A stretch of 57,676 nucleotides of DNA from Salsipaludibacter albus. GTDB taxonomy: Bacteria; Actinomycetota; Nitriliruptoria; Nitriliruptorales; Nitriliruptoraceae. A program made the translations under genes and the position numbers. Position 1 is the first letter of the stretch, and every line of letters begins with the position of its first letter. This document shows, in pieces, positions 3,231-33,330 of the stretch. The stretch lies in contig NZ_JAHOPH010000019.1 of the NCBI RefSeq assembly GCF_019798055.1, forward strand, positions 1 to 57,676, given 5' to 3'. The notes beneath the pieces were generated by a model. That model saw only the letters and a program-made list of their open reading frames with translations, had not been told where the DNA came from and did no database searches.

Positions 3231-3316
3231 GGCGGTGGTCCCTCCGTCGTCGGTCGCGGGTGTCGGTCTGGCGGGTCGGGCCGGGTCGTCGAGGGGACCC
3301 CCGACCCCGGGGTGGC

Positions 3317-3550
3317 CTACTCGGGCGACTGCAGGACGGTGACGTACGTGGCCTCGACCACGAACATCTCGGCCCAGCGGCGCTCGTCGTACAGCGTGTA
3401 GGCGAACACGGTCGCGTCGTCGGACGTCGCGGCCTGGACCTCGCCGACGTGGTGCAGGGCGGGCTCACGGCCGTGGCGGGCGAAGACCTCCCAGGCACGT
3501 TCGCGGCCGCGCTGGCTGGTCGCTCCGGTCGTCGCCTCGGCCATGGTCAC
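3317..3550 (-). CDS. PaaB-like oxygenase small subunit
   Basis: A 77-residue protein. The GTG at 3550 overlaps the stop of the DUF59 gene (GTGA); an ATG two codons later (3544) is an alternative start. The core AWEVFARHGREPALHHVGEV matches the PaaB signature (Y/WEVF.R......HVG...A), followed by AEMFVVEATYVTV like the PaaB strand WVVKASEI. It is shorter than typical PaaB (~95 residues). PaaB bridges PaaA-PaaC heterodimers in the epoxidase. An 86-bp gap separates it from the next gene, the largest gap inside this operon. Confidence 0.75.
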   Translation of the reverse strand: MTMAEATTGATSQRGRERAWEVFARHGREPALHHVGEVQAATSDDATVFAYTLYDERRWAEMFVVEATYVTVLQSPE

Positions 3551-3909
3551 ACCACCGCCACGGTCGCCAGCAGCGCTCGACCGGTCGGCGTCAGGTCGTC
3601 ACGCGACCACGACTCGAGGACGTCCTCCACGACCACCTCGGTGACGCCGTGGAGCGCCCCGACGGCCTCGACCACGTCCTCGCGGATCATCTCGACACAG
3701 GGACATGCCAGCGAGGTGTAGGTCAGTCCGACGGTCACGTGGCCGTCGACGACGTGCAGTCGCCGGACGAGCCCGAGGTCGACCAGCCCGACCGGCAGCT
3801 CCGGGTCCTCGACCTCCGCCAGGACCGCCAGCACGCGCTCGGCCAGGACGTCGTCGTCGACCGACGCGGCCTGGTCAGCGTCGACCGGTGGCGTCAGCAC
3901 GGCGGTCAT
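3547..3909 (-). CDS. DUF59/MIP18-family protein, N-terminal half of PaaD
   Basis: A 120-residue protein starting MTAVLTPPVDA. Its ATG overlaps the stop of the PaaA-like gene (ATGA). It holds the MIP18/DUF59 pattern: EDPELPVGLVDLGLV, then VGLTYTSLACPCVEMI with a CPC where PaaD and SufT-like proteins have a conserved Cys, then a helix and a VTEVVVEDVLESW segment. PaaD proteins usually continue into a zinc ribbon; this one stops. The ribbon is encoded alone at 1964-2215. The role inferred from family and operon is assembly of the Fe centre of the adjacent oxygenase. Confidence 0.8.
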   Translation of the reverse strand: MTAVLTPPVDADQAASVDDDVLAERVLAVLAEVEDPELPVGLVDLGLVRRLHVVDGHVTVGLTYTSLACPCVEMIREDVVEAVGALHGVTEVVVEDVLESWSRDDLTPTGRALLATVAVV

Positions 3910-4868: not shown

Positions 4869-4895
4869 CGTTGGTCTCCTCGCCGGGTGGGAACG

Positions 4896-4914
4896 ACCTT
4901 ACCTGACCGGTCAG
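4896..4914 (-). promoter_or_regulatory. Candidate TetR-type operator and -10 box of the Paa-like operon
   Basis: A perfect 12-bp palindrome, CTGACCGGTCAG (4903-4914), lies just upstream of a TANNNT hexamer (TAAGGT on the minus strand, 4896-4901), 28 bases before the GTG at 4868. Such TGACCGGTCA palindromes are typical binding sites of TetR-family repressors controlling acyl-CoA catabolism. A protein bound here would cover the -35/-10 spacer. No TetR gene is in the window. Confidence 0.5.
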
Positions 4915-4977
4915 TCAGTCCGCAACCGCCACGCTCGTGATGGCCCGTCGGGTCCCGAGGTCAGGGAGGTGGAGACG

Positions 4978-6264: not shown

Positions 6265-6320
6265 CGGGTTGCCTCCCGCGACGCGCGGTCGCCCCCGGAG
6301 GACGGCCCGTCCGGCGAGCC

Positions 6321-6335
6321 TAGACTCGGTCGGTG
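6321..6335 (+). promoter_or_regulatory. Candidate -10 box giving a leaderless aldehyde dehydrogenase mRNA
   Basis: TAGACT (6321-6326) matches the TANNNT -10 consensus and ends six bases before the GTG at 6333. Transcription would start at or next to the start codon. There is no Shine-Dalgarno sequence in front of this GTG, which fits leaderless initiation, common in actinobacteria. The -35 region is weak. Confidence 0.45.
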
Positions 6336-7808
6336 GACCGACCCGACGAGATCGAGGCCACCGTGTCCATCCCCACCATCCCCGCGTTCGTGGCCGGCGA
6401 GTCGGTCGACGCCGACGACCACTTCGAGACGCTCGACCCCTCCACCGGCGAGGTGCTCGCGCGGCTGGCTGCCTGCGGCCCCGACCAGGTCGACGCCGCC
6501 GTCGGTGCCGCCCGCGCCGCGCTGCCGGGATGGCGCGACACGCCGGTGGCCGAGCGCAGCAGGCTGCTCAGCGCCTTCGCCACGCGGATCCGGACCGACG
6601 CCGACGAGCTGGCCGACCTCGAGAGCCACGACACCGGCAAGCCACGCTCGCAGGCCGCCGTCGACGTCGAGCAGTGCGCCCAGTACTTCGAGTTCGCCGC
6701 CGGCGCGATCCGGGTGCTGCACGGCGACGTGATCCCCACCGGCCCGGACACGCTTGCCTACACCCGGCGGGAGCCGCATGGCGTCGCCGGGGTGATCATC
6801 CCGTGGAACTACCCCCTCCAGATCACCGGTCGCACCGTCTCCGCGGCCGTCGCGACGGGCAACACCGTCGTGCTCAAGCCGGCCGAGGAAGCCCCGCTCA
6901 CCCCGATGCGCCTGGCCCGGACCGCGCTGGAGGTCGGCTTCCCGCCAGGGGTGTTCAACGCCGTGCCGGGGATCGGCGAGGTCGCGGGCGCGGCGCTGGC
7001 CGCCCATCCCGGGATCGACCACCTGTCGTTCACGGGCTCGGTGGCGGTCGGGCGACTGGTCGGCACCGCGGCGGCCCAGACGTTCACGCCGCTCACCCTC
7101 GAGCTGGGTGGCAAGTCGCCCAACATCGTGTTCGCCGACGCCGACCTGGACGACGCCGTCCCCACGATCGTGGGCTCGATCCTCCAGAACGCCGGCCAGA
7201 CGTGCTCGGCCGGGTCGCGCCTGCTCGTTGCGCGCGAGCGCCACGACGAGCTGGTCGACCGGGTGCGGACCGCCTTCGCGTCGACGCGGATCGGGCCGGG
7301 ACCCGACGACCCGGACCTCGGTCCCCTGATCTCGGCCGACCAGCGGGACCGGGTCGCGGGCATGGTGGCCGACGCGGCGCGCGAGTCCCGGCTGGTCACC
7401 GGCGGCACCGTTCCGGAGGGTGACGGACTGGCCGGCGGCTTCTACTGGGCACCGACCCTGTTCGCCGACGTCGACCCGGGGGCGACAGTCGCACGTGAGG
7501 AGGTGTTCGGGCCGGTCCTCGCCACGACCGCGTTCGACGACCCGGCGGACGCGGCCCGGATCGCCAACGGCACCGACTACGGCCTGATCGCGGCGATCTG
7601 GACCCGCGACGTGGACCGGGCGCACTGGCTGGCCCACCAACTGGACGTCGGGCAGGTCTACGTCAACTCCTACGGCGCCGGCGGCGGTGTGGCGTTCCCG
7701 TTCGGTGGCGTCAAGCACTCCGGACACGGGCGCGAGAAGGGCATGGAGTCCCTGGTCGGGTACACCCGGACGAAGACCGTCGCCGTGCGGACTCGACCCC
7801 CGGCCTGA
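6333..7808 (+). CDS. NAD(P)-dependent aldehyde dehydrogenase
   Basis: A 491-residue ALDH-superfamily enzyme of standard length. Visible motifs: GVIIPWNYPLQ, VVLKPAEEAPLTP for cofactor binding, FTGSVAVGR, LELGGKSPN with the general-base Glu, and NAGQTCSAGSRL with the catalytic Cys, then EEVFGPVLA and FPFGGVKHSGHGREKG near the end. It should oxidise an aldehyde to an acid; betaine- or gamma-aminobutyraldehyde-type enzymes look similar, so the substrate is open. Being divergent from an aminotransferase, it could oxidise the aldehyde left by transamination. The start could also be the GTG at 6363. The convergent ThrE-like gene lies 58 bp beyond its stop. Confidence 0.9.
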   Translation: MDRPDEIEATVSIPTIPAFVAGESVDADDHFETLDPSTGEVLARLAACGPDQVDAAVGAARAALPGWRDTPVAERSRLLSAFATRIRTDADELADLESHDTGKPRSQAAVDVEQCAQYFEFAAGAIRVLHGDVIPTGPDTLAYTRREPHGVAGVIIPWNYPLQITGRTVSAAVATGNTVVLKPAEEAPLTPMRLARTALEVGFPPGVFNAVPGIGEVAGAALAAHPGIDHLSFTGSVAVGRLVGTAAAQTFTPLTLELGGKSPNIVFADADLDDAVPTIVGSILQNAGQTCSAGSRLLVARERHDELVDRVRTAFASTRIGPGPDDPDLGPLISADQRDRVAGMVADAARESRLVTGGTVPEGDGLAGGFYWAPTLFADVDPGATVAREEVFGPVLATTAFDDPADAARIANGTDYGLIAAIWTRDVDRAHWLAHQLDVGQVYVNSYGAGGGVAFPFGGVKHSGHGREKGMESLVGYTRTKTVAVRTRPPA

Positions 7809-7811
7809 CCC

Positions 7812-7838
7812 CGGCCCGGCGGGCGGCCAGCCGGGCCG
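7812..7838. terminator. Bidirectional hairpin between convergent genes
   Basis: CGGCCCGGC (7812-7820) and its perfect complement (7830-7838) flank a 9-base loop between the stops of the aldehyde dehydrogenase and the ThrE-like gene. No T-run follows, as is usual in GC-rich actinobacteria. Confidence 0.5.
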
Positions 7839-7865
7839 CACCCGCGGCGCCCGAAGGGCTCGGCA

Positions 7866-9707
7866 TCACGCGTGCGGGGGCGAGGTCCGTCCCGGCCGGT
7901 GCCCGCGCCACAGCTCCGGCGTGGTCACCAGCAGGCCCAGCAGGATGCCCAGGGCGATGCCGACCATCGCGGCCCCGGTCGTGAACAGGGTCGAGATGCC
8001 GCGCACCCCGCCCTCGCTCAGGATCCTGGTGACGCCCTCAAGCCCGAGCGCACCCGGCACGAGCAGCCAGAACGCGGGCAGGAAGGTCACCAGGGACGGC
8101 GGCCCCGACGGCTGCCGGGAGGCGTACACGGCGACCGGGGTCATCGCGACGGCGCCGAAGAACGCCGAGGCGGCGTTGCCGAAGAACAGGCCCCCGACGA
8201 CCTGGCCCGCGTAGGCCACGGCCAGGGTGAGCAGGATCCAGGGCACCGCCGACCGGCGGGCCGACCGGCCCCAGGTGATCCCCAGCCCGAACACGACGAC
8301 GCCGACCCAGGGGGCGACCACGCCGAGCGCACCACCCCACCCGGTCACCGCGGTGTCCGCGACCACGTCATTGGCAGCCGGGATGCCCACGAACTGCGCC
8401 GCGCCGAGGATGCCCCCCGCCAGCAGCACGAGCTGCAGGCCACCGGAGCCCAGCCGGGCGACGCCCGACACGGCCTGTCCCGTCGCCAGCTCCAGCGTGC
8501 CCATCGTCAGGAGCGCGCCGGGGAGGAAGGGGATCAACGGGGCGACCAACGGGGGCAGGATGGCCAGGTCCGGCGCGACCCGGGCGACCAGGAACACCGC
8601 CGTGGCGACGGAGAACGCCGCGATCAGGGGCAGGAAGGGATGGAACTGGGACCGTCGGGGTGACTGCACGACCTGGAGGACCCCGACGGCCGCTCCGAGG
8701 GCCCCCGCAAGCGCGATCTCGAGGAGGTTGCCCTGCATGATCAGGGCCAACCCGACGGCGGCCACGGCGTGCCCGACCAGCGACAGGGGGAGCCGGATCG
8801 GGGACGGGGCCGCGCGCACGTCGGCCAGCTCGGCACGTCCCACGGCCGGGTCCACCTCGCCGGCGACCGCACGGTCGACCAGGCGCAGGACCGCCTCGGT
8901 CTGGTCGAGGCGGAGCCGGCCGGCGCCGGCGGTGGTGACCTCGGTCTGCACGGTGTCGTGGCCGGGTACCGAGATGATGATCGCCGTCGGCAGCACGATC
9001 ACGCCGACCCGTGCCAGTCCGGCCCTCCGGGCGATGCGCTGGAGCGTGTCCTCCACCCGGTTCACCGCGTCGCCGGCGTCGACCAGGGCCTCGCCGAGCT
9101 CGAGCAGGAACGCGACGGCCTCCCGGTCGGCCGCGGCCCCACGACCCGACCGGGCACGCCGCTCCTCCGGCGGGGACACCGGTGCCGGAGTCGTCGCCCC
9201 AGGTGCCGGGGCACGGTCCGCGGTGCCGGTCGACGTCCCCGCGCCGGGTCGACCCGAGCGTCGCCCGATCACGAACGCCGCCGTTCCGGCGGCAAGCAGG
9301 ACCCCGACGGCCAGCACGATCGTCCCGACCGGGATCGACGACCGACGCAGGCTCGGCGACACCCCGGATCCCCGGTCCACGGACGCACCGTCGCCGGGGC
9401 TCGCCTCCTCGGACGGGACCGGCTCGGCCTCCGACTCCTGCTCCTGGCCGTCGGACGGCTCGTCGCCCGGGTCCTCGTCCGCCTCTCCGGGCGGCGAGGT
9501 CGTCGCACCGGGCTCCGTGCCCACCCCCGGGTCGTCCGGCGGGCTGGGGGTGGCCACGCCCTCGCTGGCGGTCGCATCCAGCGGAGCCGGCCCGACCGAC
9601 GGGTCGACCGTCTGCGCACCGGCGACGCCCTGGGCCGAGCCCAGGGCGAGGAACATGGCGACGACCACGAGCGCGAACCACGCCGACCGGGCTCGTGGGA
9701 CCATCAC
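7866..9707 (-). CDS. ThrE-type threonine/serine exporter with secreted N-terminal extension
   Basis: A 613-residue membrane protein. Residues 1-31 form a signal peptide (FALVVVAMFLALGSAQGVAGA). Residues 32-120 are a P/E/D-rich low-complexity stretch, 126-148 a membrane segment, and from ~190 a ThrE module: a cytoplasmic-type domain (LGEALVDAGDAVNRVEDTL), then about ten hydrophobic helices covering the DUF1212 and DUF3815 halves. ThrE of Corynebacterium exports threonine and serine. The extracytoplasmic acidic extension with its own helix is an unusual addition to a family of normally ~490 residues. Start: GTG at 9707 with GGAGG six bases upstream, or ATG at 9704. Confidence 0.85.
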   Translation of the reverse strand: MMVPRARSAWFALVVVAMFLALGSAQGVAGAQTVDPSVGPAPLDATASEGVATPSPPDDPGVGTEPGATTSPPGEADEDPGDEPSDGQEQESEAEPVPSEEASPGDGASVDRGSGVSPSLRRSSIPVGTIVLAVGVLLAAGTAAFVIGRRSGRPGAGTSTGTADRAPAPGATTPAPVSPPEERRARSGRGAAADREAVAFLLELGEALVDAGDAVNRVEDTLQRIARRAGLARVGVIVLPTAIIISVPGHDTVQTEVTTAGAGRLRLDQTEAVLRLVDRAVAGEVDPAVGRAELADVRAAPSPIRLPLSLVGHAVAAVGLALIMQGNLLEIALAGALGAAVGVLQVVQSPRRSQFHPFLPLIAAFSVATAVFLVARVAPDLAILPPLVAPLIPFLPGALLTMGTLELATGQAVSGVARLGSGGLQLVLLAGGILGAAQFVGIPAANDVVADTAVTGWGGALGVVAPWVGVVVFGLGITWGRSARRSAVPWILLTLAVAYAGQVVGGLFFGNAASAFFGAVAMTPVAVYASRQPSGPPSLVTFLPAFWLLVPGALGLEGVTRILSEGGVRGISTLFTTGAAMVGIALGILLGLLVTTPELWRGHRPGRTSPPHA

Positions 9708-16628: not shown

Positions 16629-17279
16629 TCACTCCGTGACGGTGAAGGTCACGGTGTCGGTGATCCGGGGCTCGAAGGGCACCGGGTAGCCGTGCGAGGC
16701 CAGCACCGTGACGGTGTGCTCGCCGGGCTCCAGCGCGCCCAGCTCGATCGTGGGCTCGGCCGACTTCACGATCGACGTCGAGTCGGGCAGCCGCACCCGC
16801 TCGTCGGGTGGCTCGACGTCGACGAACGCCCACAGGTGCCCCTCGGCCGGTTCCATGCTGGTGCCGAGCTCGACCAGCTCGAAGCCGTCGAACGCCACCT
16901 CGAGCGTCAACGGAGACGACACCTCGTCGCCGTCGGCCGGTGCCTCGATGGCCAGCGAGCGCTCCGGTGCCGACGCGCCCGACGACGGGCTGGCCGACGC
17001 CGTCGACGTCGGCGCCGGGGCCGGCGTCGCGGTCGCGGTGTCGTCGCTGTCACCGGCACCACCGCCGGTGGTCGCGTTGGGGAGCGGGATCGTCTTGGCC
17101 TCGGACGGCGACGCCGAGGGGGCCTGGCTCGGCGAGGCGGCCGACGGTGATGCGGACGGGGCCGCGACGGACGACGCCGAGTCCGGCGACGGCTCCGCCG
17201 CGGGTCCGGACGTGCACCCGCCGAGCAGCATGGCGCCGGCGAGTGCCAGGGCAGGGGTGGCGCGTCGTGCGGTCATCAT
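16629..17279 (-). CDS. Secreted lipoprotein with C-terminal DUF4399-like domain
   Basis: A 216-residue protein. Residues 1-22 are a lipoprotein signal with lipobox LGGC. Residues 25-115 are an S/A/P/T-rich linker, as in many surface lipoproteins. A compact beta domain follows, with GHLWAFVDVEPPDERVRL and ELGALEPGEHTVTVLASHGYPVPF, resembling the DUF4399 pattern. AAGGA lies six bases before the ATG at 17279. The stop is close to a GTCAC/GTGAC hairpin (16626-16642). It precedes nothing obviously functional; function unknown. Confidence 0.75.
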   Translation of the reverse strand: MMTARRATPALALAGAMLLGGCTSGPAAEPSPDSASSVAAPSASPSAASPSQAPSASPSEAKTIPLPNATTGGGAGDSDDTATATPAPAPTSTASASPSSGASAPERSLAIEAPADGDEVSSPLTLEVAFDGFELVELGTSMEPAEGHLWAFVDVEPPDERVRLPDSTSIVKSAEPTIELGALEPGEHTVTVLASHGYPVPFEPRITDTVTFTVTE

Positions 17280-17436: not shown

Positions 17437-20400
17437 TCACTTCCCGAGGTCGGACCTGGCAGCGGCACGATCGATGTCGCGCTTCTCGCTGCGGGTGAGG
17501 AGCCCGTCGTCGACGAGGTCGGCGGTGAGGTCCCGCACGTGGCGGACGGCCTCGCCGTGGTTGGCGAAGTCCTGGTCCTCGTCGTCGAGCAGGTCCTCGA
17601 CCGTGCAGCCGTCCTCGTCGTGGTGGTTGTCGACGCCGGAGTCGACGTCACCGACCGTCACGGTGTCGGACAGGTCCGAGCCCGGGCAGGCGTCCTCACG
17701 GATCGTGAAGGACACCGCCTCGACCTCGCTGGTGTTGCCGGCTGCGTCGATCGCGCGGGCCTCGACCGTGTGCTCACCCTCCGACTCGACCGTGATCGGT
17801 CCGTCCCAGGTGGTCCAGTCGCCTCCATCGAGTGCGTACTCGATGGTCTCGACCCCGCTGCCGTCGCCGTCGTCGGCCTCCACGGTGACCGTCACGGGGG
17901 TGTTGTACGTCCCCTCGAAGTCACCGACCGGGTCGCCGTTCGGCTCGGCCGGGTCCAGCGTGACGTCCACCGTCGGCGGCTCGTCGTCGACCTCGGCGAT
18001 CACGAAGCTCGCGTCGCCGACCGCCGAGACGTTGCCCGCGGCGTCGGTCGCGCGGTACTCGACCGTGTACTCGCCGGGCTCGGTGACGGTGACCGTGCCG
18101 TCGTACATGGTCCAGTCACCCCACTCGCCCGACGTTGCCAGGCGGTACTCGACGGTCTCCACGCCGACGTCGTCGGTCGCGTCGACCACGATCTCGACCG
18201 GCTCGGTCGAGGTGTCGAGGGTGACACAGGCGATCGGCAGCCCGGCGTCCCCACCATGGATCATGGTGGACCGGGCCTCGACCCGTGCCGTCCAGGTGGC
18301 CTGGCCGCTCAGCTGCGCCTCGCCCGACCCGTCGGCGGTGAAACCGGCCTCCGGGTCCGACTGGTCGTCGACCAGCCACAGCTCGTTGGGGGGCGCCTCC
18401 GCCCCGTCGGGGTCGTCCTGGTAGTGGCCGCCCATCGGCATGGCCTCGCAGGTGCCCTCGTGGAGGTGGCCCGCGTAGCTGGCGCCGGGCTCGAGGCCCG
18501 CCAGGTCGACGCTGATCTGGGTGCCGTCATCCGCGACGACCAGCTGACCGGTGCCGGAGATGCTCTCGCCCGGCTCGGGCGTGAACTCGCCGCTGAAGGT
18601 GCCCAGGAGGGCGCCCTCGACGGTCGGGGCCGTCTCGTCGGGCTCCTCGCCGTCGTCCTCCGCCAGGTCGAAGCCGACCTGGGTGTCGCCGTCGACACCG
18701 GTGATGCCAAGCGTCCACAACTCTTCGGGCGTGCCACCCGGCTCGGTGGCGGTGATGTCGGTCGGGAACGTGATGGAGACCAGCGGCTGGTCGGACTCGA
18801 CCGACACGACCGCGTCGTAGACGTAGAACGGGACGGGTGCGTACTGGTCGCCGTCCGCATTGTGGCGGTACTCCATCGGTCCGATCGCGATATGGTTGGA
18901 CGCGTCGTCCAGGGCCGGGTAGCCCCAGTCGGACTGCGTCACCGTCACCGTCTCGGTGGAGCCGTCCGCGAACTCCAGGACGAAGTCACCGGACACGGTG
19001 CCCTGCCCGGCGTCCGTCGCCGTGCCGAAGACGTGCAGGCTGTCGTAGACACCCTGCTCCTCCTCGGACAGCTCCAGGACCTGGCCGTTGGTGCCCGCCA
19101 CGTTCGGCACGGCACCGCTGGTGTCGGCCGGCATGCGCAGCACGACGTCGTCGTAGGTGTCGTCGGGCGCCGGCTCGGACGAGTCCGCGTCCGGCACGAG
19201 CTCGGCCGCGAAGCTGGTCGTGCCCGGGATCGCACCGTTGCCGAGGTGGTCGTGGTCGGTGATCCCGACCGCGTCCAGCACCGGTCCGGGTTCGCTGGGC
19301 TCGAGCTCGGCGATCCGCACGTTGCGGAACGACACCACGTCGGCGTCACCGTGGTTCTGCAGGCCGATGAAGCCCTGCAGCCCCTTGCCCTGGGTGTCGG
19401 TGTAGGTGTTGATCACCTCGCCGTTGATGCTGACGGTGTACTCACGACCCTCGACCGTGATCTCGTAGTCGTTCCACGAGCCGGGCGGGTTGGAGTTGAA
19501 GTCGTCCTCGCGGTCGGCGTTGTAGATCGAGCCGGTCCGCTGGGGCTCACCCGTCGTCGCGTCGTAGATCTGGATCTCGTGACCCTCGTCGATCGCCACG
19601 CCCGGGTCGTCGCCCGGGTCCGGGAAGCGGACGAAGACGCCGGAGTTGTCGGTCGCCTCCTCGGCCTTCCACTGCAGGCGGAGGGTGAAGTTCTCGTACT
19701 CCTGCTCGGGGTACCAGAACAGTCCCAGGCCGCCCTGGCTGACCATCGCGCCGTTCTCCAGCGTGAAGCTGCCGGGTCCGGCCTGCTGCCACACGTCGAA
19801 CAGTTCCTGGCTGCCGTCGAAGAGCCATGCGAAGCCCTCCTCGAGTTCGAGGCCCTCGCTCCAGGTCACCGTGGCGGTGTCGACCGTCTCGGCGTCGCTG
19901 GCGAGGTTGACGGGATCACCGGCGTCGTCGACGACCAGCACGTCGTCGGTGACGCAGTCGTCGGTGCCGGTGCAGGCGACCACGATGTCGTCGGCCGCCG
20001 CGTCGTGGCTGTAGGTGAACGTGGTGGTGCCGTCGTCGCCGGTCGCCGACGTCGTGTCGGTCACCGGTGTGTAGACGTCACCATCGGTGCCGGCCGGGGG
20101 CGTCGCGTCCTCGTCGAGGCGGTAGACCTCGAAGCGCACGTCGTTGCCGACCATCGGGACGCCACCCGTGGCCAGCTCGGCCGTCAGGGTGTAGTCGTCA
20201 CCGAACTCCGGCTCGCCCGTCGCGGGTGCCAGGTCGAGGTTGGGCGTGAGCGTCGCGGTGTCGAGGGTCACGCCGAAGACGTGGAACCGGTCGTCACCGG
20301 GCAGGGTCAGCAGGGCCGGCTCGCGGGACGGGTCCAGCGGCACGGACTGGTGGAAGATGTTGACCGGTGGCGTGGTCTCGCCCGACGAGTTGTAGCGGTA

Positions 20401-23400
20401 GCCGGCCGCGACGGCGACGTCCTCGCCGAAGCTGGGCGACTGGGCCCAGTCGGTGAACTGGATCGGCACCTCACTGCTCGAGCCGTCGGTGTAGATGACG
20501 GTCGCGGTGGTGTCCACCGACCCGTTGTGGGCCGAGGCGAGCAGGTGCAGCTGCCCGTACGAATCCGGGTGCAGGCCGATCGTCTGGCCCCGCGCCTCGA
20601 TGTTCTGGGTGACCGCGTCGTCCAGGGTCGGGAACTCCCACGGCACACCGGCCAGGGTCACGGCACCGGCGCCGGGCATCTCCTCGGCCGGGTAGCTCCA
20701 GCCACCGCCGTCGAAGTTGCCGTCGCCGGGCGCCTCGGCGCTGGCGATGCCGTCGTTGTTGGTGTAGGCCGACACGTCGAGGACGCAGAAGCCGTCCTCG
20801 GTGCGCAGGCACTCGTCCGCCGGGGCGTAGACCTCGACCGTGGTCGAGCCCGTCGCGCTCAGTCCGGCCTCGTCGGTGACCGTCACGGTCACGTCGAAGA
20901 TGCCACCCGAGTCGTAGGTGTGGGTCGGCGTGGCGCCGTCGCCGGTCGTGCCGTCACCGAAGTCCCACGCATGGGTCAGCGTGGTGTCCTCGGGGTCGGT
21001 CGCGACCGCCTCGAAGGCGACCTCCAGCGGTGCGGCACCCACCTCGGGGCTCGCCGTCACCGACTCGACGGTCGGCAGTGCATCCTCGGCGATGCCCTTG
21101 CCACGGGCCCAGAAGGCGTCCACGTCGAACAGGGCACCGTCGGCGTCCGGGTTGGTGAAGACCAGGTACATGTCGTGCGTGCCACCGGGGTCGGTGACGT
21201 CGGCGGACACCATCTCGTAGGTGTCGTAGCTGCCGGTGTCGGTGACCGCGACGGTCGCGACAAGCGGACCGTCCGGCGCGTCGACGCGGACCTCGATGTC
21301 GCCGCCGGCGCCACCGGAGGAGACCCGGAAGTCCATGGACTCGATGCCCTGGAAGTTCACGGGCGAGAAGCGGATCCACTCGCCGTCCTGGATGTCACCG
21401 ACGCGGGCGTCGCCCTCGGCGCCACCGGCCCCGATGATCGCGGCCGTGGTGTCGCCGTCGATCGAGCCGGTCTCGTCGAAGTGCTCGGCCTGGCGGTGCT
21501 TGGGCTGCAGCTGGATGGTCTCGGTCGTCGTGATCGCACCGACCTCGCCCTGGGCGTCGTCGGTGTAGGAGGCGGCGACGATGCCGAATACGTTGGCGTC
21601 GAGCCCGTGGCCGTCACCCGGGTCCCCGGTCGACAGGGTGCCCTCGCACCCGGTGACGGTGGACTGGGGGTGGCCGTGGGCGTCGTGGCCGGTCACGAAG
21701 CTGACCTCGACGCGCGAGCAGTCGATCGTGCCGTCGGCGGTCGAGCCGTCCTCGGCGTCGTCGACCTCGATGGTGAACGGGATGTCCTCACCCCAGGCCA
21801 CGAACCCACCCTCGGGCGGGGTCGTGATGGTGACCTCGGGGGCGGTGTTGCCGACCACGATGCTGGTCGTGATCGTCCCGTCGTTGCCCGCGGGGTCGGT
21901 CACGGTCAGGCGCGCGTCGTACTCGCCGGCCTCGGTGTAGGTGTGGGTGACGGTGGCGCCGGTCGCGTCGACCGTGCCGTCGTCGTCGAAGTCCCACTCG
22001 TAGGTCAGGTCGTCACCGTTGGGGTCGCTGCTGCCGGTGCCGTCGAAGGACACCTCGAGCGGTGCCTGGCCGGAGGTCGGCTCGGCGTCGATGCTCGGCA
22101 CGGGCGAGACCCGGCCGCCGGTGTAGTCGATGCGCCACAGTCCGGCCTCGGGGCTGCCCGAGAAGTAGCCGGTGCCGTAGTCCAGGATGTAGAGGTGGCC
22201 GTCCGGGCCGAACTCCATGTCCATGCCCCGGACCAGCGGGTCGGCCTGGGGGAAGTCGTCGACGTGGATCGGGAACTCGGTCTCGGGGTCCATGGTGAGG
22301 ACCTTGAAGAACTCGCGTGACCACTCGTAGACGAACCACTTGCCGTCGAAGTACTCGGGGAACTTGGTCTCGTTGGCGTTGTCGGCGTCGTAGTCGTAGA
22401 TCACGCCACCCATCGCGGTGTTGCCGCCACCGGCCTCGATCCAGGGGAACTGCTCCGGCGGGTTGTTGCGCGGGTACCAGATGTCGGCACCGATGGCCGG
22501 CGGCAGCTCGGTGACGCCGGTGTTGTTGGGCGAGTCGTTGGTCGGGCCACCCTCGCAGTCGAACTCCGGACCGGACTCACCGGTCGCGAAGTCGTAGTCG
22601 TGGTACGGGGTGTTGGGGCCCGAGCAGTACGGCCAGCCGTAGTTGCCGGCGGACTTGGCCACGTCCCACTCGTCGTAGGCGGCGGGCCCGCGGTCACCGA
22701 TCGCGTTGGTGGCGTCCGGCCCGACGTTGCCCCAGTACAGCCAGTCGGTCTCGGGGTCGACCCAGATCCGGAACGGGTTGCGCAGGCCCATGACGTAGAT
22801 CTCGTCACGGATCAGCGACTGGTCCTTGTCCGCGGCCCAGTCGAGGTCCTGGAGGTTGCCCTCGGGGATCGTGTAGGTGCCGTCGTCCTCCGGGTGGATG
22901 CGCAGGATCTTGCCCGACAGGTCGTTGGTGTTGCCGGAGGTGCGCTGGGCGTCGAACGCCGAGCGGCCCTCCCGCTCGTCGATCGGGGTCATCCCGTCGG
23001 AGGCCATCGAGTTCGTGTTGTCACCGGTGGAGACGTAGAGGTTGCCCTCGGAGTCCCACGCCATGTCCCCGGCGGTGTGGCAGCACACGTCGCGCTGGGT
23101 GAACCACTCGAGCATCGGGATCTCGGAGTCGAGGTCGAGCGTGTTGCCGTCCATCTCGAAGCGCGAGATGCGGCGGGTGTCGGTGTCGGCCGGCGGCACC
23201 GAGTAGTGGATGTAGATCTGCTGGTTGGTCGCGAAGTCGGGGTCGAACGCGATCCCGATCAGGCCGTCCTCCAGGCCACTGAAGACCTCGAGGTTGGCGG
23301 CGTCGGTGACCTGGCCGGTGTCGGGGTCGTAGACCTGCAGCGCACCGCGACGCGAGGTGTAGAACACCCGTCCGTCCGGGGCGATGTCCATGGTCATCGG

Positions 23401-24240
23401 CTCACCGATGTCGCTGGTGAGCTTGACCGCCTCGTAGTTCTCCGGGACGGTCGCGCCACAGTCGGACTCGACCAACCCGGCGACGGTCTGGATGCCGCCC
23501 AGCACGTGCTCCTCGAAGGCGGGGTCGGTGAACGACTCGGTGGTGTGGCCCATCCCCGTGTACCAGGAGCGACCGCCGTCGAAGTCCTGGCACCACGCGA
23601 TCGGGTGCTCGAAGCCCATCGCCCCGGCACCGGCGTCGTAGCTGCCCTCGTCGAGGCCGGCCAGGACGTGGACGTCGCCGGTCGGGTTGGACTGGAAGTT
23701 GTACCACTCGTCGGTGCGCGTCCACTGGAGCGGAAGGTGCTCGGTGGAGGGATGCACGCGGTCGTTGACGACGATCGTCGCCTCCTGGATCGCCGGGTGG
23801 TCCTCGAAGTACGCCCCGACGAGGTCGCCGTACCAGGCCCAGTCGTACTCGGTGTCGGACGCCGCGTGGATGCCGGCGTAGCCCCCGCCGGCCTGGATGT
23901 AGCGTTCGAACGCGGCCTGCTGGTCACCGTCGAGCACGTCCCCGGTGGTCGACAGGAAGACGACCGCGTCGTAGGAGCCGAGGTCGTCGTCGTTGAAGAC
24001 CGCGGCGTCCTCGGTCGAGGTGACCGTGAAGTCGTTGGCCTCGCCGAGGCGCTCGATCATCGCGATGCCGTCGGGGATGGAGGCATGGCGGAACTCGGCG
24101 GTCTTGGAGAACACCAGCACGCTCGCATCGGCGTCCTGCGCCTGCGCGGCGGGCGCCGGCGCGGCGACCACCAGGGCCCCGACCATCCCGACGACGAGTG
24201 CGATGAACAGGGACAGGCGCAGGGGCATGCGTCGTGACAC
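17437..24240 (-). CDS. Giant secreted multi-domain protein: ThuA, sugar dehydrogenase propeller, PKD, CBM-like, DUF1080, SOD-like
   Basis: A 2,267-residue exported protein. Approximate domains: signal peptide 1-35; ThuA-like 41-265 (FSKTAEFRHASIPDG, GGGYAGIHAASD); glucose/sorbosone-dehydrogenase-type beta-propeller 270-710 (MDIAPDGRVFY, GLIGIAFDPDF, GLRNPFRIWVDPETD); PKD 713-800; Ig-like to 905; CBM6-like 917-1033; PKD 1055-1135; a beta module 1152-1332 whose pattern recurs at 1652-1870; Ig-like 1335-1425; DUF1080-like 1464-1644 (FDGSQELFDVW, DNSGVFVRFPDP); Cu/Zn-SOD-like 1877-2007 (GHLHEGTC, GGHY, MIHGG); two OmpL47-like domains 2012-2180; an acidic/basic tail with a helical C-terminus. ThuA, this propeller and DUF1080 recur together in 3-keto-sugar catabolism. 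Here they are covalently linked and outside the cell. Activity is inferred. Confidence 0.85.
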   Translation of the reverse strand: MSRRMPLRLSLFIALVVGMVGALVVAAPAPAAQAQDADASVLVFSKTAEFRHASIPDGIAMIERLGEANDFTVTSTEDAAVFNDDDLGSYDAVVFLSTTGDVLDGDQQAAFERYIQAGGGYAGIHAASDTEYDWAWYGDLVGAYFEDHPAIQEATIVVNDRVHPSTEHLPLQWTRTDEWYNFQSNPTGDVHVLAGLDEGSYDAGAGAMGFEHPIAWCQDFDGGRSWYTGMGHTTESFTDPAFEEHVLGGIQTVAGLVESDCGATVPENYEAVKLTSDIGEPMTMDIAPDGRVFYTSRRGALQVYDPDTGQVTDAANLEVFSGLEDGLIGIAFDPDFATNQQIYIHYSVPPADTDTRRISRFEMDGNTLDLDSEIPMLEWFTQRDVCCHTAGDMAWDSEGNLYVSTGDNTNSMASDGMTPIDEREGRSAFDAQRTSGNTNDLSGKILRIHPEDDGTYTIPEGNLQDLDWAADKDQSLIRDEIYVMGLRNPFRIWVDPETDWLYWGNVGPDATNAIGDRGPAAYDEWDVAKSAGNYGWPYCSGPNTPYHDYDFATGESGPEFDCEGGPTNDSPNNTGVTELPPAIGADIWYPRNNPPEQFPWIEAGGGNTAMGGVIYDYDADNANETKFPEYFDGKWFVYEWSREFFKVLTMDPETEFPIHVDDFPQADPLVRGMDMEFGPDGHLYILDYGTGYFSGSPEAGLWRIDYTGGRVSPVPSIDAEPTSGQAPLEVSFDGTGSSDPNGDDLTYEWDFDDDGTVDATGATVTHTYTEAGEYDARLTVTDPAGNDGTITTSIVVGNTAPEVTITTPPEGGFVAWGEDIPFTIEVDDAEDGSTADGTIDCSRVEVSFVTGHDAHGHPQSTVTGCEGTLSTGDPGDGHGLDANVFGIVAASYTDDAQGEVGAITTTETIQLQPKHRQAEHFDETGSIDGDTTAAIIGAGGAEGDARVGDIQDGEWIRFSPVNFQGIESMDFRVSSGGAGGDIEVRVDAPDGPLVATVAVTDTGSYDTYEMVSADVTDPGGTHDMYLVFTNPDADGALFDVDAFWARGKGIAEDALPTVESVTASPEVGAAPLEVAFEAVATDPEDTTLTHAWDFGDGTTGDGATPTHTYDSGGIFDVTVTVTDEAGLSATGSTTVEVYAPADECLRTEDGFCVLDVSAYTNNDGIASAEAPGDGNFDGGGWSYPAEEMPGAGAVTLAGVPWEFPTLDDAVTQNIEARGQTIGLHPDSYGQLHLLASAHNGSVDTTATVIYTDGSSSEVPIQFTDWAQSPSFGEDVAVAAGYRYNSSGETTPPVNIFHQSVPLDPSREPALLTLPGDDRFHVFGVTLDTATLTPNLDLAPATGEPEFGDDYTLTAELATGGVPMVGNDVRFEVYRLDEDATPPAGTDGDVYTPVTDTTSATGDDGTTTFTYSHDAAADDIVVACTGTDDCVTDDVLVVDDAGDPVNLASDAETVDTATVTWSEGLELEEGFAWLFDGSQELFDVWQQAGPGSFTLENGAMVSQGGLGLFWYPEQEYENFTLRLQWKAEEATDNSGVFVRFPDPGDDPGVAIDEGHEIQIYDATTGEPQRTGSIYNADREDDFNSNPPGSWNDYEITVEGREYTVSINGEVINTYTDTQGKGLQGFIGLQNHGDADVVSFRNVRIAELEPSEPGPVLDAVGITDHDHLGNGAIPGTTSFAAELVPDADSSEPAPDDTYDDVVLRMPADTSGAVPNVAGTNGQVLELSEEEQGVYDSLHVFGTATDAGQGTVSGDFVLEFADGSTETVTVTQSDWGYPALDDASNHIAIGPMEYRHNADGDQYAPVPFYVYDAVVSVESDQPLVSITFPTDITATEPGGTPEELWTLGITGVDGDTQVGFDLAEDDGEEPDETAPTVEGALLGTFSGEFTPEPGESISGTGQLVVADDGTQISVDLAGLEPGASYAGHLHEGTCEAMPMGGHYQDDPDGAEAPPNELWLVDDQSDPEAGFTADGSGEAQLSGQATWTARVEARSTMIHGGDAGLPIACVTLDTSTEPVEIVVDATDDVGVETVEYRLATSGEWGDWTMYDGTVTVTEPGEYTVEYRATDAAGNVSAVGDASFVIAEVDDEPPTVDVTLDPAEPNGDPVGDFEGTYNTPVTVTVEADDGDGSGVETIEYALDGGDWTTWDGPITVESEGEHTVEARAIDAAGNTSEVEAVSFTIREDACPGSDLSDTVTVGDVDSGVDNHHDEDGCTVEDLLDDEDQDFANHGEAVRHVRDLTADLVDDGLLTRSEKRDIDRAAARSDLGK

Positions 24241-24552
24241 GGGGGGACAACCTCGGTCGGGGGATGCGGTCGACTCTCCACGCTAGGAACTTCTTCCCAC
24301 ACCTTCAAGGGGTTTGGTCACAAATCGACAGAAGTCCAAATATTCCCACCGGGACCCCTTCTGTTCTGCCGATCACCGGACGAAGAACGCGGACGGTCGG
24401 TGTACGAACGGTGGTGGTGTCACCGGAGACTGGTCGAGGGCGCCAACCCACTCCCGCAAATGTGTGACACCAATCCGAGGGAGGGATTGACAGGCGTCAC
24501 AGGACGCGACACGCTGGGGACGTCCACCCCCGTCCCGACCGATGGCTGCCCG
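24241..24552. promoter_or_regulatory. 312-bp divergent control region between the giant gene and paaX-paaA
   Basis: No gene fits here. 24290-24370 is visibly richer in A+T than its surroundings, as expected of promoters. On the plus strand TTGACA (24487-24492) is followed, 17 bases on, by a weak -10-like CACGCT. Inside that spacer lies the inverted repeat GCGTC/GACGC (24494-24507), a candidate operator for the PaaX domain encoded just downstream. Confidence 0.4.
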
Positions 24553-26493
24553 GTGCCCGATCGCCCCCGCGTGTCCGCCACCTCCTCGACCCGCTCGCTG
24601 CTGATCACGGTCCTGGGCGACGTGGTGCGTCCGTCCGGTGGACAGGCGTGGCTCGGCGCACTGACCGAGGCCATGGCCGCCTTCGACGTGTCGGACACCA
24701 CGGTCCGCCAGGCACTGCGACGGCTGTCCGACGAGGGCCTCGTCACCGCCTCGCGCCACGGCCGGCTCGCGCGCTACCGCCTGACCGACGTCGGGCAGCA
24801 ACGCTTCCAGGACGCGGCCGAGCGGATCTACCTCCAGCGTGACCTGGGCTGGGACGGCCAGTGGCGCATGCTGATGTACACCTTCCCGGAACGTGAGCGC
24901 GGCGCCCGCGAGGCCCTGCGCCGCGAGCTGGAGTGGCTCGGGTTCGGGTCGCTGGGCAGCGGCACGTGGGTGTGCCCGTGGGACCTCGGCACCCGGCTGG
25001 ACGTCGTCCTCGACGCCCACAAGGTGGCCGGCGACGTCGAGGTGTTCACCGCCGAGCATGAGGGTGAGGACGCCGCCCTGGCCGCCCGCGCCTACGACCT
25101 GTCGGACCTGCGCACGGCCCACGCCGCGTTCCTGTCGGCAGCCCCGCCCGAGGTCGACGAGGGCGACGACCAGGCCGCCTTCCGCGCCCGGGTCGAACTG
25201 GTGCACCAGTGGCGCAAGTTCCTGTTCCTGGACCCCGGCCTGCCCGACGCGCTGCTGCCCGAGGACTGGCTCGGTGACCGGGCCGCGAACGTCTTCCTGT
25301 CGCGCTACCGGGCGCTCGAGGCCCCGGCGTGGGCCCACTGGGACCGCCTCGTCGCCGACGCCGACCCGGACGGCACCGTGCCGCCGCACCGCTCCAACCT
25401 CGACGCGACGCACCAGCCCGTCCCGACCGCCGCCCGCGCCGACTCCGGCACCCGTCCCGACACCCGCACCCCCGACGACAACACGTCGAGCGTGCCGAAC
25501 GCGGCCACGGGTGACCGCGATGCGCACACTCGACGAGGCAACGGGGCGACGGCCATCCCCGAGGAGGAGGATCCGAAGCGCGTCGAGGAGTTCCTCGAGC
25601 AGGTGCACAACGGGCGACTGGTCGAGCCGCACGACTGGATGCCCGAGACCTACCGACGCCTGAACCTCAAGTTCATCGAGATGCACGCCAACAGCGAGAT
25701 CATGGGTGCCCTGCCCGAGCGCGAGTGGATCGCACGGGCCCCCACGCTCAAGCGCAAGCGCTCGCTGGCCGCCAAGGTCCAGGACGAGGTCGGGCACGGC
25801 CAGTTGATCTACCGGGTCGCCGAGTCGCTGGGCAAGCCACGTCGCCAGATGTACGACGACCTGGTCCACGGACGCAGTTCGTTCCACAACGTGTTCCACT
25901 ACCCGACCCACACGTGGGGGGACGTGGCCTGCATCGGCTTCCTGGTCGACGGGGCGGCGATCGTGACCCAGCGGGCCCTGCTCGACACCAGCTACGGGCC
26001 CTACGTGCGGGTCATGAAGCGGGTCGTCGCCGAGGAGTCGCTGCACTACCGCCACGGCGAGGACATCATGCTCGCACTGGCGTCGGGCACCGACGAGCAG
26101 TTCGCGATGCTCCAGGAGGCGGTGACGCGCTGGTGGGAGCCGATCATGCACTTCTTCGGCACCGACGTGGCCGCCGAGGACGACCCCTCGATGCACTGGG
26201 GCATCAAGCCGCAGACCAACGAGACCTCGCGTCAGTCGTGGATGAGCCAGTACATCCCCAAGATGTGGGACATGGGCCTCGAGCTGCCGGACGACCAACT
26301 TCGCTGGGACCCCGACGAGGAGGTCTGGATCTACACCGAGCCGGACTGGGACCGGCTCAAGGCGATCGTCAAGGGCGAGGGCACCGAGGCGACCCGCACC
26401 CGGCTGTGGTGGCGCCAGCTGATGCACGACAACCACGACTGGATCCGAGACGTCCTGATGGGCGCCGACGACGGGGTGGTGACGGTCGCATGA
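24553..26493 (+). CDS. paaA: PaaX repressor fused to phenylacetyl-CoA epoxidase subunit PaaA
   Basis: One uninterrupted 646-residue frame. Residues ~10-274 are a full PaaX-type regulator: wHTH (VSDTTVRQALRRLSDEGLV, then RYRLTDVGQQRF), DGQWRMLMYTFPERER, and the ending LPDALLPEDWLGDRA. Residues 275-335 are a low-complexity linker. Residues 336-646 are PaaA: HANSEIMGALPE, AKVQDEVGHGQLIYR, VAEESLHYRHGED (diiron ligands), HWGIKPQTNETSRQSW. PaaX normally represses paa genes and releases DNA on phenylacetyl-CoA; PaaA is the catalytic diiron subunit. I found no stop, RBS or in-frame start supporting a separate paaA. GTG 24553 or 24571 may be the start. A lost stop by sequencing error is possible but would have to fall in the linker. 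Confidence 0.8.
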   Translation: MPDRPRVSATSSTRSLLITVLGDVVRPSGGQAWLGALTEAMAAFDVSDTTVRQALRRLSDEGLVTASRHGRLARYRLTDVGQQRFQDAAERIYLQRDLGWDGQWRMLMYTFPERERGAREALRRELEWLGFGSLGSGTWVCPWDLGTRLDVVLDAHKVAGDVEVFTAEHEGEDAALAARAYDLSDLRTAHAAFLSAAPPEVDEGDDQAAFRARVELVHQWRKFLFLDPGLPDALLPEDWLGDRAANVFLSRYRALEAPAWAHWDRLVADADPDGTVPPHRSNLDATHQPVPTAARADSGTRPDTRTPDDNTSSVPNAATGDRDAHTRRGNGATAIPEEEDPKRVEEFLEQVHNGRLVEPHDWMPETYRRLNLKFIEMHANSEIMGALPEREWIARAPTLKRKRSLAAKVQDEVGHGQLIYRVAESLGKPRRQMYDDLVHGRSSFHNVFHYPTHTWGDVACIGFLVDGAAIVTQRALLDTSYGPYVRVMKRVVAEESLHYRHGEDIMLALASGTDEQFAMLQEAVTRWWEPIMHFFGTDVAAEDDPSMHWGIKPQTNETSRQSWMSQYIPKMWDMGLELPDDQLRWDPDEEVWIYTEPDWDRLKAIVKGEGTEATRTRLWWRQLMHDNHDWIRDVLMGADDGVVTVA

Positions 26494-26864
26494 GCCACCA
26501 CGACGACCCTGCCGCGTCCCCTGCGCCCACGACCCACGCCAGCTTCGAGGTGTTCACCCGTCGCAACTGGCAGAGCCGACTGGAGCACGCCGGCACGATC
26601 CATGCCGCCGACCCCGAGTCCGCCCTGGTGCTGGCCCGCGAGACCCACGTCCGCCACCAGGAGGGCGTGGAGTACGCGGTGGTCGCGTCCGAGGCCTTCC
26701 ACCTCGTCAGCGACCCCACCACCCTGGACCGCAAGGTCGACATGACCTACCGCCTCCAGGCCGGCTACTCGGGCTTCCGCGAGAAGCGCGAGCGTGCCCG
26801 CGAGGCCGCCCGTGCCCGCGGCCGCGGCCACCTGGCCGACCAACCCGCCCCGGGACGGAGCTGA
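26490..26864 (+). CDS. paaB: Phenylacetyl-CoA epoxidase subunit PaaB
   Basis: A 124-residue protein, ATGA-overlapped with the PaaX-PaaA gene. It has the PaaB signature ASFEVFTRRNWQSRLEHAGTIHAADPESALVLARE and the strand YAVVASEAFHLV, followed by a charged tail (EKRERAREAARARGRG). PaaB is the small bridging subunit that lets the PaaAC complex oligomerise. It is 30% longer than typical because of the extended N- and C-termini. Translational coupling to paaA is likely. Confidence 0.9.
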   Translation: MSHHDDPAASPAPTTHASFEVFTRRNWQSRLEHAGTIHAADPESALVLARETHVRHQEGVEYAVVASEAFHLVSDPTTLDRKVDMTYRLQAGYSGFREKRERAREAARARGRGHLADQPAPGRS

Positions 26865-26865
26865 C

Positions 26866-27768
26866 ATGCCCGACCGGACCCCTGACCGACAGCCTCCGAC
26901 CCAGTCGAGTGAGCGGATCGCGGCCGTCGACGGCCGTGGTGAGCACACTCGACGAGATGGCGAGGTCGACGCGACGACGGCGCGGCGGGAGCTGCTGCTG
27001 GCGATCGCCGACGACGAACTGGTGACCGGGCACCGGTCCAGCCACTGGACCGGCGTCGCGCCGTCGATCGAGGAGGACCTGGCCTTCTCGACCATCGCCC
27101 AGGACGAGGTCAACCACGCCGACGTCTGGTACCAGGTGCTGTTGACCCCCGACAACGGCGAGGTCGACCGCGCCGAGGTGGACGCCCTCGGGCTGGGACG
27201 CCCGGCCGACGGCTATCGCCACGCGGTGCTGTGCGAGCGACCTCCCCGGGACTTCGCCTACACGCTGGCCCGCCACTGGCTGTACGACCACGCCGACACC
27301 GTCCGGCTCGCCACCCTGGTCGACTCGTCGGATCCCGACGTCGCGGCCGTGGCCGCCAAGCTGCTCCACGAGGAGCGCTACCACCTCGAGCACGCGGACC
27401 TGTGGTTCCGTCGGCTCACCGGTGGCGGGGACGAGCCGCGGCGCCGGTTCCGTGCTGGCCTGGAGCTGGCACTGCCCGAGGCCATGTGGCTGTTCGAGCC
27501 CTCGGTCGGGGCCGACGTCGCACGGGAGTCCGGGCTGCTGCCCGAGTCGTTCGCCACGATGTTCGCGCGCTGGGCGGAGTTCGTGGCCGCGTCGCTGGAC
27601 GCGGTCGGGCTGGGCGACATCGCGCCGGGCTCCCTGCGGACCGGCTCGGCCGACGGGCTGTTCGACCGGCCCGGCGGCCGCCACGGAGTCCACTCCGACG
27701 ACTTCACCGCCGACGTCTGGCCCGAGATGACCACCCTCTACCGTTCCCACCCCGGAGCACAGTGGTGA
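26866..27768 (+). CDS. paaC: Phenylacetyl-CoA epoxidase subunit PaaC
   Basis: A 300-residue protein starting one base after the paaB stop. After a ~40-residue variable N-terminus it follows PaaC: LLLAIADDELVTGHRSSHWTGVAPSIEEDLAF, a central helix, LLHEERYHLEHADLW, and the ending GGRHGVHSDDFTADVWPEM with GAQW at the C-terminus. In PaaC of E. coli the diiron positions are lost (LLGQAR, KEARYH). Here the equivalent helices read IAQDEVNHAD and HEERYH, so metal ligands may be kept. It should pair with the PaaA domain. Confidence 0.9.
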   Translation: MPDRTPDRQPPTQSSERIAAVDGRGEHTRRDGEVDATTARRELLLAIADDELVTGHRSSHWTGVAPSIEEDLAFSTIAQDEVNHADVWYQVLLTPDNGEVDRAEVDALGLGRPADGYRHAVLCERPPRDFAYTLARHWLYDHADTVRLATLVDSSDPDVAAVAAKLLHEERYHLEHADLWFRRLTGGGDEPRRRFRAGLELALPEAMWLFEPSVGADVARESGLLPESFATMFARWAEFVAASLDAVGLGDIAPGSLRTGSADGLFDRPGGRHGVHSDDFTADVWPEMTTLYRSHPGAQW

Positions 27769-32222: not shown

Positions 32223-33191
32223 TCAGAAGGTCAGGCAGGTGAGGTACTCCCAGCTGTCCTCGACCGAGGCGTAGGGATCCGGCGGGAAGTCGTACTCGAT
32301 GAAGTAGTGCTCGACGGACGTCGCCGCCCGGAACACGTCGCCCCAGTCGGTCGTGCCCTCACCGACGTCCGCGAAGCCACCATCGGTCGTGGTGTCCTTG
32401 ACGTGCAGGAACACGATCCGGTCCTCGTACTGCTCGATGAAGTCGACCAGCATCTCCTGGTTCGACGGGTCCGCGAGGTTGTCGGCCAGGTCGTCGCTGC
32501 CACGGCCGCCGGCCAGCCCGATGCGGGCCCAGTGGACGTCCAGCTCGAGCGACACGTAGCGCGGGTCGGTCTCGGCCAGGACGATCTCGATGACCGGCGT
32601 CTCCTCGAGGTCGCCGTCACCGTCGAGGTCGTACATGTAGGTGGTGGTGAACTCGCGGTCGTGGTTGTGGACGTACAGCCGCAGGCCCTGCTTGAGGGCA
32701 CGCTCACCGAGTTCATTCAGGTTCTCGGCGGTCTGCAGGGTGTCCTCGAGCGAGCCGAACCCGGGTCCACCGAAGCCGCCGGACCCGACGTACTTCTGGT
32801 TCAGGGCCTTCGCGTCGGCCAGGGTCTGGTCCCAGGTGTCGAGGTCGAGACTGCTGTGGCTCGCCACCGGCCGGACCTGGTAGTCGTCCCACAGGTCGCC
32901 GTACTCCTCCATGGACAGCCCGAAGGTGCCGCCGAAGCGCTCGACGTTGCGCATGCCCAACTCGGACATGTGCGCGATGACGTCCTCGATCGCCGGGTCC
33001 TCACTGAACAGGACCGGGCCGTACGTGTACTGCTGGACGCCGATCTTGGCCTCGGGCAGGCCACGCCCGGCACAGTCGGCGTTGCCGACGTCGTCCGGTG
33101 GCGCCGCGGAGGCCCCGCTGGCCAGTCCGAGGCCGCCCAGGGCCAGTGCACCGGCCAGCACGGTGGAGGTGAGTGTTCGTCGTGTGTGCAC
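32223..33191 (-). CDS. Secreted sugar phosphate isomerase/epimerase-like TIM barrel
   Basis: A 322-residue protein. GTG start with AAGGA six bases upstream; the signal peptide begins VHTRRTLTSTVLAGALALG, with a twin-Arg that fits Tat export, and ends near ASGASA. The mature part follows the xylose-isomerase-like TIM barrel: KIGVQQYTYG, MSELGMRNVERFGG, LYVHNHDREF, VSLELDVHWARI and FLHVKDTT, with Glu, His and Asp metal ligands in the usual strands. Secreted versions occur in 3-keto-sugar catabolism together with ThuA, DUF1080 and propeller dehydrogenases, the same set fused in the giant protein at 17437-24240. Substrate inferred, not shown. Confidence 0.85.
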   Translation of the reverse strand: MHTRRTLTSTVLAGALALGGLGLASGASAAPPDDVGNADCAGRGLPEAKIGVQQYTYGPVLFSEDPAIEDVIAHMSELGMRNVERFGGTFGLSMEEYGDLWDDYQVRPVASHSSLDLDTWDQTLADAKALNQKYVGSGGFGGPGFGSLEDTLQTAENLNELGERALKQGLRLYVHNHDREFTTTYMYDLDGDGDLEETPVIEIVLAETDPRYVSLELDVHWARIGLAGGRGSDDLADNLADPSNQEMLVDFIEQYEDRIVFLHVKDTTTDGGFADVGEGTTDWGDVFRAATSVEHYFIEYDFPPDPYASVEDSWEYLTCLTF

Positions 33192-33330
33192 GAGATGTCC
33201 TTCGCTCGGTCGGGTCCTGCTCATCCCGGATCGCGAGGCGGCGGGCGGCCGTCGTCGCGCTCCGTCCGGGGCGCCGCACGGGCCCCGTCTTCTCCTGCAC
33301 GCTACGAATCATCTGCGGAACAGGTACCAA

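Follow-up and report, generated by a model that had tools for sequence, protein, structure and literature searches.

The gene and its surroundings

The window, i.e. the complete stretch of 57,676 nucleotides analysed here from the draft genome of Salsipaludibacter albus (4.25 Mb, 97% complete), carries on its minus strand a single open frame at positions 17437-24240 that encodes 2,267 amino acids. This frame starts with GTG at 24240 and stops at 17437; an in-frame ATG located 12 bases into the gene is an alternative possible start. The GC content at the three codon positions (0.66/0.47/0.95) is typical of real genes here and the translation matched twelve Pfam families, while the overlapping plus-strand frame of 1,870 aa gave zero domain matches in Pfam. 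The minus-strand frame is therefore a gene rather than a chance reading. Reading the interval 17437-24240 on the plus strand was rejected, as it contains internal stop codons and no domain. Residues 1-34 (24139-24240, minus strand; ...APAPAAQAQ/DA) resemble a Sec-type signal peptide, from which we infer that the protein is exported. No sortase or transmembrane anchor was seen at the C-terminus by eye. The single exported chain of this length, for which the preliminary description gave no strand, was thus confirmed and assigned to the minus strand.

Downstream, after a gap of 157 bp, a gene for a 216-aa lipoprotein follows on the same strand (16629-17279), with a Ser/Pro/Ala linker of low complexity and a domain that weakly matches DUF4399. 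Among the genes checked around the 2,267-aa gene, there was neither a sugar transporter nor a 3-keto-sugar operon. A xylose-isomerase-like TIM barrel (AP_endonuc_2; 32223-33224, minus strand) is encoded 8 kb away and does not share an operon with the 2,267-aa gene; this superfamily includes sugar isomerases and epimerases. The single 697-aa frame at 24400-26493 (plus strand) combines a complete PaaX-type regulator with a PaaA/PaaC di-iron domain, and further PaaA/PaaC genes are located at 26794-27768 (plus) and 3906-4868 (minus). At 42816-46763 (minus), a 1,315-aa protein joins a BTAD/Trans_reg_C activator, an nSTAND1 NTPase and a C-terminal solute-binding-protein-like (SBP_bac_1) domain.

Domain architecture of the 2,267-aa chain

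All domains described below are encoded on the minus strand. Behind the signal peptide, the chain begins with a ThuA domain (residues 38-255, positions 23476-24129), matched by Pfam at residues 41-251 (4e-79, 266 bits) and superimposable in the model on 4jqs (Z 24.8, 217 aligned residues, rmsd 2.5). It is followed by a six-bladed GSDH propeller (residues 262-712, positions 22105-23457); the Pfam match covers residues 280-541 (1e-30), the fold extends to about residue 712, and the motifs CCH (386-388) and RN (487-488) as well as R671 lie within it. The next segments are a first PKD domain (residues 713-797, positions 21850-22104; Pfam 713-794), an Ig-like segment with a weak Big_7 match (residues 798-904, positions 21529-21849) and a CBM6 (residues 905-1046, positions 21103-21528), the latter matched by Pfam at 917-1044 (9e-30), by PDB entry 1gmm (2.5e-15) and structurally by 2v4v (TMt 0.86). 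An AlphaFold model of residues 38-1046 reached a mean pLDDT of 90, and the Ig-like segment was mostly of high confidence in it.

The second half opens with another PKD domain (residues 1057-1140, positions 20821-21072), detected by Pfam (about 1057-1138) and by PDB sequence search. Then comes a first AziU2-like domain (residues 1145-1335, positions 20236-20808), which matched PDB entry 7wuw (2.4e-15; Z 16.8 for the model), and a second Ig-like segment of low model confidence with relatives in locus L152 (residues 1336-1449, positions 19894-20235). The DUF1080, or 3-keto-glycoside eliminase-hydratase, domain occupies residues 1450-1650 (positions 19291-19893; Pfam 1472-1643, 3e-36; local pLDDT about 97). 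Residues 1651-1868 (positions 18637-19290) might be taken for a new domain; this was rejected when a profile built from eight relatives without the query recognised them as a diverged second AziU2-like copy (E 3e-15 at Z=1e5). The chain continues with a Cu-only-SOD-like domain (residues 1870-2010, positions 18211-18633), two OmpL47/Big-type beta domains (residues 2011-2182, positions 17695-18210; NF047446 in two stretches, 1.7e-34, and Big_13/OmpL47 near 2018-2180) and a small C-terminal domain common to relatives (residues 2185-2267, positions 17440-17688), many of which have FIMAH at the same place. The second structural model, of residues 1140-2010, was good in parts; only its DUF1080, first AziU2-like and SOD-like parts were used, because the underlying alignment A2 mixed fragments and some of these were misplaced.

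The domain search (Pfam/NCBIfam) recovered the ThuA, GSDH, CBM6, DUF1080, Big and both PKD domains. PDB sequence searches added an AziU2-like domain (at 1150-1330) and the weak SOD-like match; the two AziU2-like domains and the Cu-only-SOD-like domain were absent from the preliminary description. In one relative (L177) the AziU2-like domain is also the C-terminal part of a GH92 enzyme, so here it is most simply regarded as an accessory domain of a carbohydrate enzyme.

The GSDH propeller and its cofactor

The propeller model matched 2ism (Z 39.2), 3das (Z 35.8) and s-GDH (1cq1, Z 32.0). H388, the equivalent of the s-GDH residue His144, and R487-N488, equivalent to Arg228-Asn229, are kept in 39 of 39 relatives, and R671, equivalent to Arg406, in most of them. 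At the places of the s-GDH residues Lys377 and Arg408 the propeller has S641 and M673; none of the 39 relatives has Lys or Arg at either place. That the loss of these two residues rules out PQQ was considered and rejected: in the AA12 enzyme CcPDH the His, the Arg-Asn and the Arg are likewise kept and Lys377 and Arg408 are missing, and this enzyme binds PQQ via the retained set plus other residues (PMC6881789). PQQ is for this reason still the best guess for the cofactor. By profile search, pqqC was not found in the genome and pqqE did not rise above the cut-off, so PQQ would have to come from outside the cell. E. coli Asd likewise relies on external PQQ. The pqqC model passed its cut-off in nine of 246 actinobacterial genomes; among 36 genomes carrying these domains, eight have pqqC and 28 have none.

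Directly before the catalytic His, a Cys-Cys pair (C386-C387) is present in 36/39 relatives. In six relatives these are the sole cysteines of the GSDH domain, and C539 and C562 are present or absent as a pair; a vicinal disulfide between 386 and 387, beside the active site, is therefore probable. In bacterial PQQ alcohol dehydrogenases, vicinal disulfides are described as canonical (PMC13384848); these enzymes are eight-bladed propellers whose sequences are not homologous to those of the six-bladed type (PMC6881789). Pfam detected no cytochrome domain on the 2,267-aa chain. Cytochrome c as electron acceptor was rejected, there being no CXXCH in the long chains listed.

To our knowledge, GSDH enzymes of established function oxidise C1 of aldoses, not C3. 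The generation of a C3 ketone by this domain is consequently the weakest step of the proposed scheme, and C3 oxidation by GSDH is unproven; counting GSDH as part of a 3-keto-sugar toolkit, as the preliminary description did, was a deduction from co-occurrence.

DUF1080 domain and catalytic residues

The DUF1080 profile (PF06439) scored 125.8 bits against a cut-off of 26.8. In the structural comparison the 3-keto-glycoside eliminase/hydratases 9fbe (Z 22.7, 176 aligned residues, rmsd 2.5) and 8rr2 (Z 21.2) ranked above plain carbohydrate-binding folds from their class, for example CBM66 (Z 18). N1532, E1555, Q1557, W1589-N1590, Q1628 and R1639 are retained, are invariant or nearly so in 28 relatives and are common to BT2157. 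In Bacteroides, 3-keto-disaccharides are substrates of DUF1080 proteins, and genetic evidence makes the same probable for Caulobacter (PMC9007349). A lack of catalytic residues in the propeller and DUF1080 had been named earlier as the mark of a mere adhesin-like protein; instead H388, R487-N488 and R671 of GSDH as well as the family-invariant residues of DUF1080 are present, and judged from these positions the catalytic parts look alive.

A Cu-only-SOD-like domain

Residues 1870-2010 contain four Cu-type His (H1925, H1927, H1939, H1995) and a Cys pair (C1931, C2005), all kept in seven of seven full-length relatives in the family alignment. There is no His between H1939 and H1995, and the nine residues from H1995 to C2005 make a very short loop VII. 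In the same alignment, the Zn-binding His71/His80/Asp83 of Cu/Zn SOD are absent from this domain; the seven relatives likewise have no Zn-site His and a very short loop VII. The lack of Zn-site His together with a short electrostatic loop marks Cu-only SODs (PMC13017621), and a Cu-only SOD of the bacterial envelope is known in Deinococcus (PMC9823218). With respect to the E110/D113 signature, E1953 is kept in all full rows and the Asp does not stand at +3. The direct sequence match is weak (the Cu/Zn-SOD-like PDB entry 7b4o at residues 1893-1977, E 2.9e-4; no Pfam match), and Foldseek returned 6zs1 (E 7e-4). The pattern of ligands suggests that the domain probably binds copper and is Cu-only-SOD-like.

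Distribution of the fusion

A scan of GTDB genomes with the whole query yielded 287 relatives, and the 80 best loci among them were retained. The closest named match came from an Egibacteraceae genome (L052), in line with Nitriliruptoria as the probable class. With our own profiles, ThuA and GSDH were found on one chain in every one of these best 80 of 287 loci, in total on 95 chains, spanning Actinomycetota, Bacteroidota, Rhodothermota, Gemmatimonadota, Latescibacterota, Calditrichota, Planctomycetota and Bacillota. Because one-chain cases are this numerous and reach across eight phyla, the ThuA-GSDH core fusion has to be considered ordinary, and the earlier statement that these domains are usually separate proteins is wrong for this pair.

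DUF1080 on a ThuA-GSDH chain is rarer but recurrent. Among the best 80 loci there were four fused chains, namely three from Jiangella (L096, L097, L102) and one from Amycolatopsis arida (L081), and in 11 loci DUF1080 was carried by a separate frame nearby; as the loci were chosen by similarity to the whole query, these shares are biased upward. The same domain order, which the preliminary description proposed to look for in other actinobacteria, was found in these four chains. A permuted order, GSDH-PKD-CBM6-ThuA-DUF1080, occurs in four genomes of one group, probable streptomycetes (L168-L171), and in L172, L173 and Streptomyces chartreusis (L185) the same domain set is divided over two adjacent reading frames. 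DUF1080 is encoded by a separate gene within 8 kb in loci of Chitinophaga, Rhodothermales and Georgenia. On the GSDH tree the fused DUF1080 state requires four changes, and the starred branches force four. In chains of the Micromonospora type, ConA-like GH43_C2/DUF1349 domains occupy the DUF1080 position. In the three Jiangella loci the DUF1080-bearing chain directly adjoins a second ThuA-GSDH chain from another clade.

The main evidence that ThuA, GSDH and DUF1080 work together is this pattern of repeated fusion, in more than one order, or of encoding side by side; a functional link between the three is thereby supported. In the open-access text searched, no paper naming this fusion was found.

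Further shuffled chains in the same genome

At least five more long shuffled chains, with ThuA duplicated, moved or missing, are encoded in the same genome. They comprise 2,534 aa (two ThuA domains), 2,298 aa, 1,727 aa (GSDH before ThuA), 1,210 aa and 2,133 aa. The last of these (L164, positions 1978-8376, plus strand, contig C3 of G000) consists of PA14, CBM35, two DUF1080, PKD, GH43_C2/DUF1349 and glucodextranase B and C domains and is another extracellular DUF1080 assembly. On contig C45 of the same genome (L182-L184), two adjacent giant frames (about 7,448 and 11,695 aa) whose codon use resembles that of genes were noted on the minus strand, at about 22878-45221 and from 47124 to beyond 80000; these are probably surface proteins.

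Discussion

On balance we slightly favour the view that the chain is a secreted, substrate-bound, multi-catalytic carbohydrate enzyme, in which GSDH oxidises a sugar and ThuA and DUF1080 act on 3-keto-sugars. What the analysis establishes is the domain make-up, the export signal, the kept family-defining residues and the repeated joining or neighbourhood of the three catalytic families; we infer that all three catalytic domains are active, that PQQ is the cofactor and that they share one substrate. CBM6 and the AziU2-like accessory domains would hold the chain on a glycan. The propeller would function as a quinoprotein-type dehydrogenase, take up PQQ from outside the cell and oxidise a sugar, either making the C3 ketone itself or, if the ketone comes from another enzyme, oxidising a released 3-keto-sugar at C1. 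DUF1080 would break the 3-keto-glycoside bond by elimination and/or hydrate the resulting glucal, ThuA would act on a 3-keto-sugar, and the SOD-like domain may handle electrons or superoxide. Several observations count against this view: the C1 chemistry of characterised GSDH enzymes, the missing Lys377 and Arg408 equivalents, the lack of pqqC here and in most genomes with such chains, the short DUF1080 subtype, and the absence of a sugar transporter or 3-keto-sugar operon among the genes checked. A much more specific version appears very unlikely: a cell-free machine in which a PQQ propeller with a vicinal disulfide makes the 3-keto glycan unit, DUF1080 eliminates, and the SOD-like domain takes the electrons or removes superoxide arising from dioxygen reduction.

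The order of the steps could be different. s-GDH and Asd are known to oxidise C1, and a separate secreted or membrane dehydrogenase might make the 3-keto-glycosides, which DUF1080 and ThuA would cleave before GSDH converts the liberated aldose into a lactone by C1 oxidation. That known 3-dehydrogenases belong to other families, as does the 3-dehydrogenase LacABC (PMC9007349), is in line with this order; against it, no partner 3-dehydrogenase was present among the genes checked in the window, and we regard this order as possible, though doubtful. The chain might also only bind, with propeller and DUF1080 inactive and serving a glycan adhesin as scaffold or lectin-like domains. Hhip uses the GSDH fold without being an enzyme and is among the fold matches of the propeller model; the chain is rich in binding and Ig domains, pqqC was not found in the genome, and the ConA-like domains that replace DUF1080 in Micromonospora and others would fit as well. 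Against such an adhesin, the His and Arg-Asn of the propeller are conserved strictly and its Cys pair near-strictly across phyla, and the polar residue set of DUF1080 is conserved too, which makes a purely binding protein unlikely. Similarly improbable, in our estimation, is ordinary domain shuffling without a joint pathway, with separate activities carried on a common export and binding vehicle: the other shuffled chains of this genome are what such a process would leave behind, but the same three catalytic families recur together across lineages, fused or adjacent.

Only recently has the 3-keto route been recognised as an alternative to glycoside hydrolases, and it is known from separate cellular or periplasmic enzymes. 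Under the favoured reading as a multi-catalytic enzyme, the conserved combination of a quinoprotein-type propeller with ThuA and DUF1080 in one exported chain suggests that many bacteria carry out part of this route extracellularly. Uncharacterised families can be assigned a function from recurrent fusion of this kind, and the chain offers a concrete construct for asking what role ThuA has and whether a 3-keto-sugar can come from a GSDH propeller.

Comparison with known systems

With soluble quinoprotein GDH, aldose sugar dehydrogenase (1cq1, 3das) and AA12 pyranose dehydrogenase, the propeller shares the six blades, the catalytic His and the Arg-Asn pair; in contrast to s-GDH and Asd, it lacks Lys377 and Arg408, as AA12 does, and has Cys-Cys directly before the catalytic His. 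The DUF1080 domain has the same fold as BT2157 and the 3-keto-glycoside eliminase-hydratases 8rr2, 9fbe and 8tda (Z 21-23, about 30% identity) and the same conserved E, Q, WN, QxHG and FRN, but it is of a short subtype of about 180 residues, without the long loops of the tested BT2157, and is embedded in a larger chain. Candida SOD5, Deinococcus DR_0644 and animal CSRP have the four Cu-type His, the Cys pair, the missing Zn-site His and the short loop VII in common with residues 1870-2010. Unlike in these Cu-only SODs, the domain is here part of a bacterial glycan enzyme, the signature Asp is spaced differently, and no equivalent of SOD1 Arg143 was seen by eye.

The closest overall counterparts are uncharacterised ThuA-GSDH-PKD-CBM6 proteins, for example of Micromonospora, Saccharothrix, Chitinophaga and Gemmatimonadota, which share the first 1,046 residues and their order at 41-56% identity. 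Most of them are without DUF1080, and those of the Micromonospora type have GH43_C2/DUF1349 and FIMAH instead. The Jiangella and Amycolatopsis arida frames continue from ThuA-GSDH-PKD-CBM6 to DUF1080 on one chain, as here; they are 1,559-1,624 aa long, and no AziU2-like, SOD-like or second PKD domain was detected in them. The ThuA-GSDH core is thus a widespread, uncharacterised bacterial fusion, of which the extra parts make the present chain an unusually complete version.
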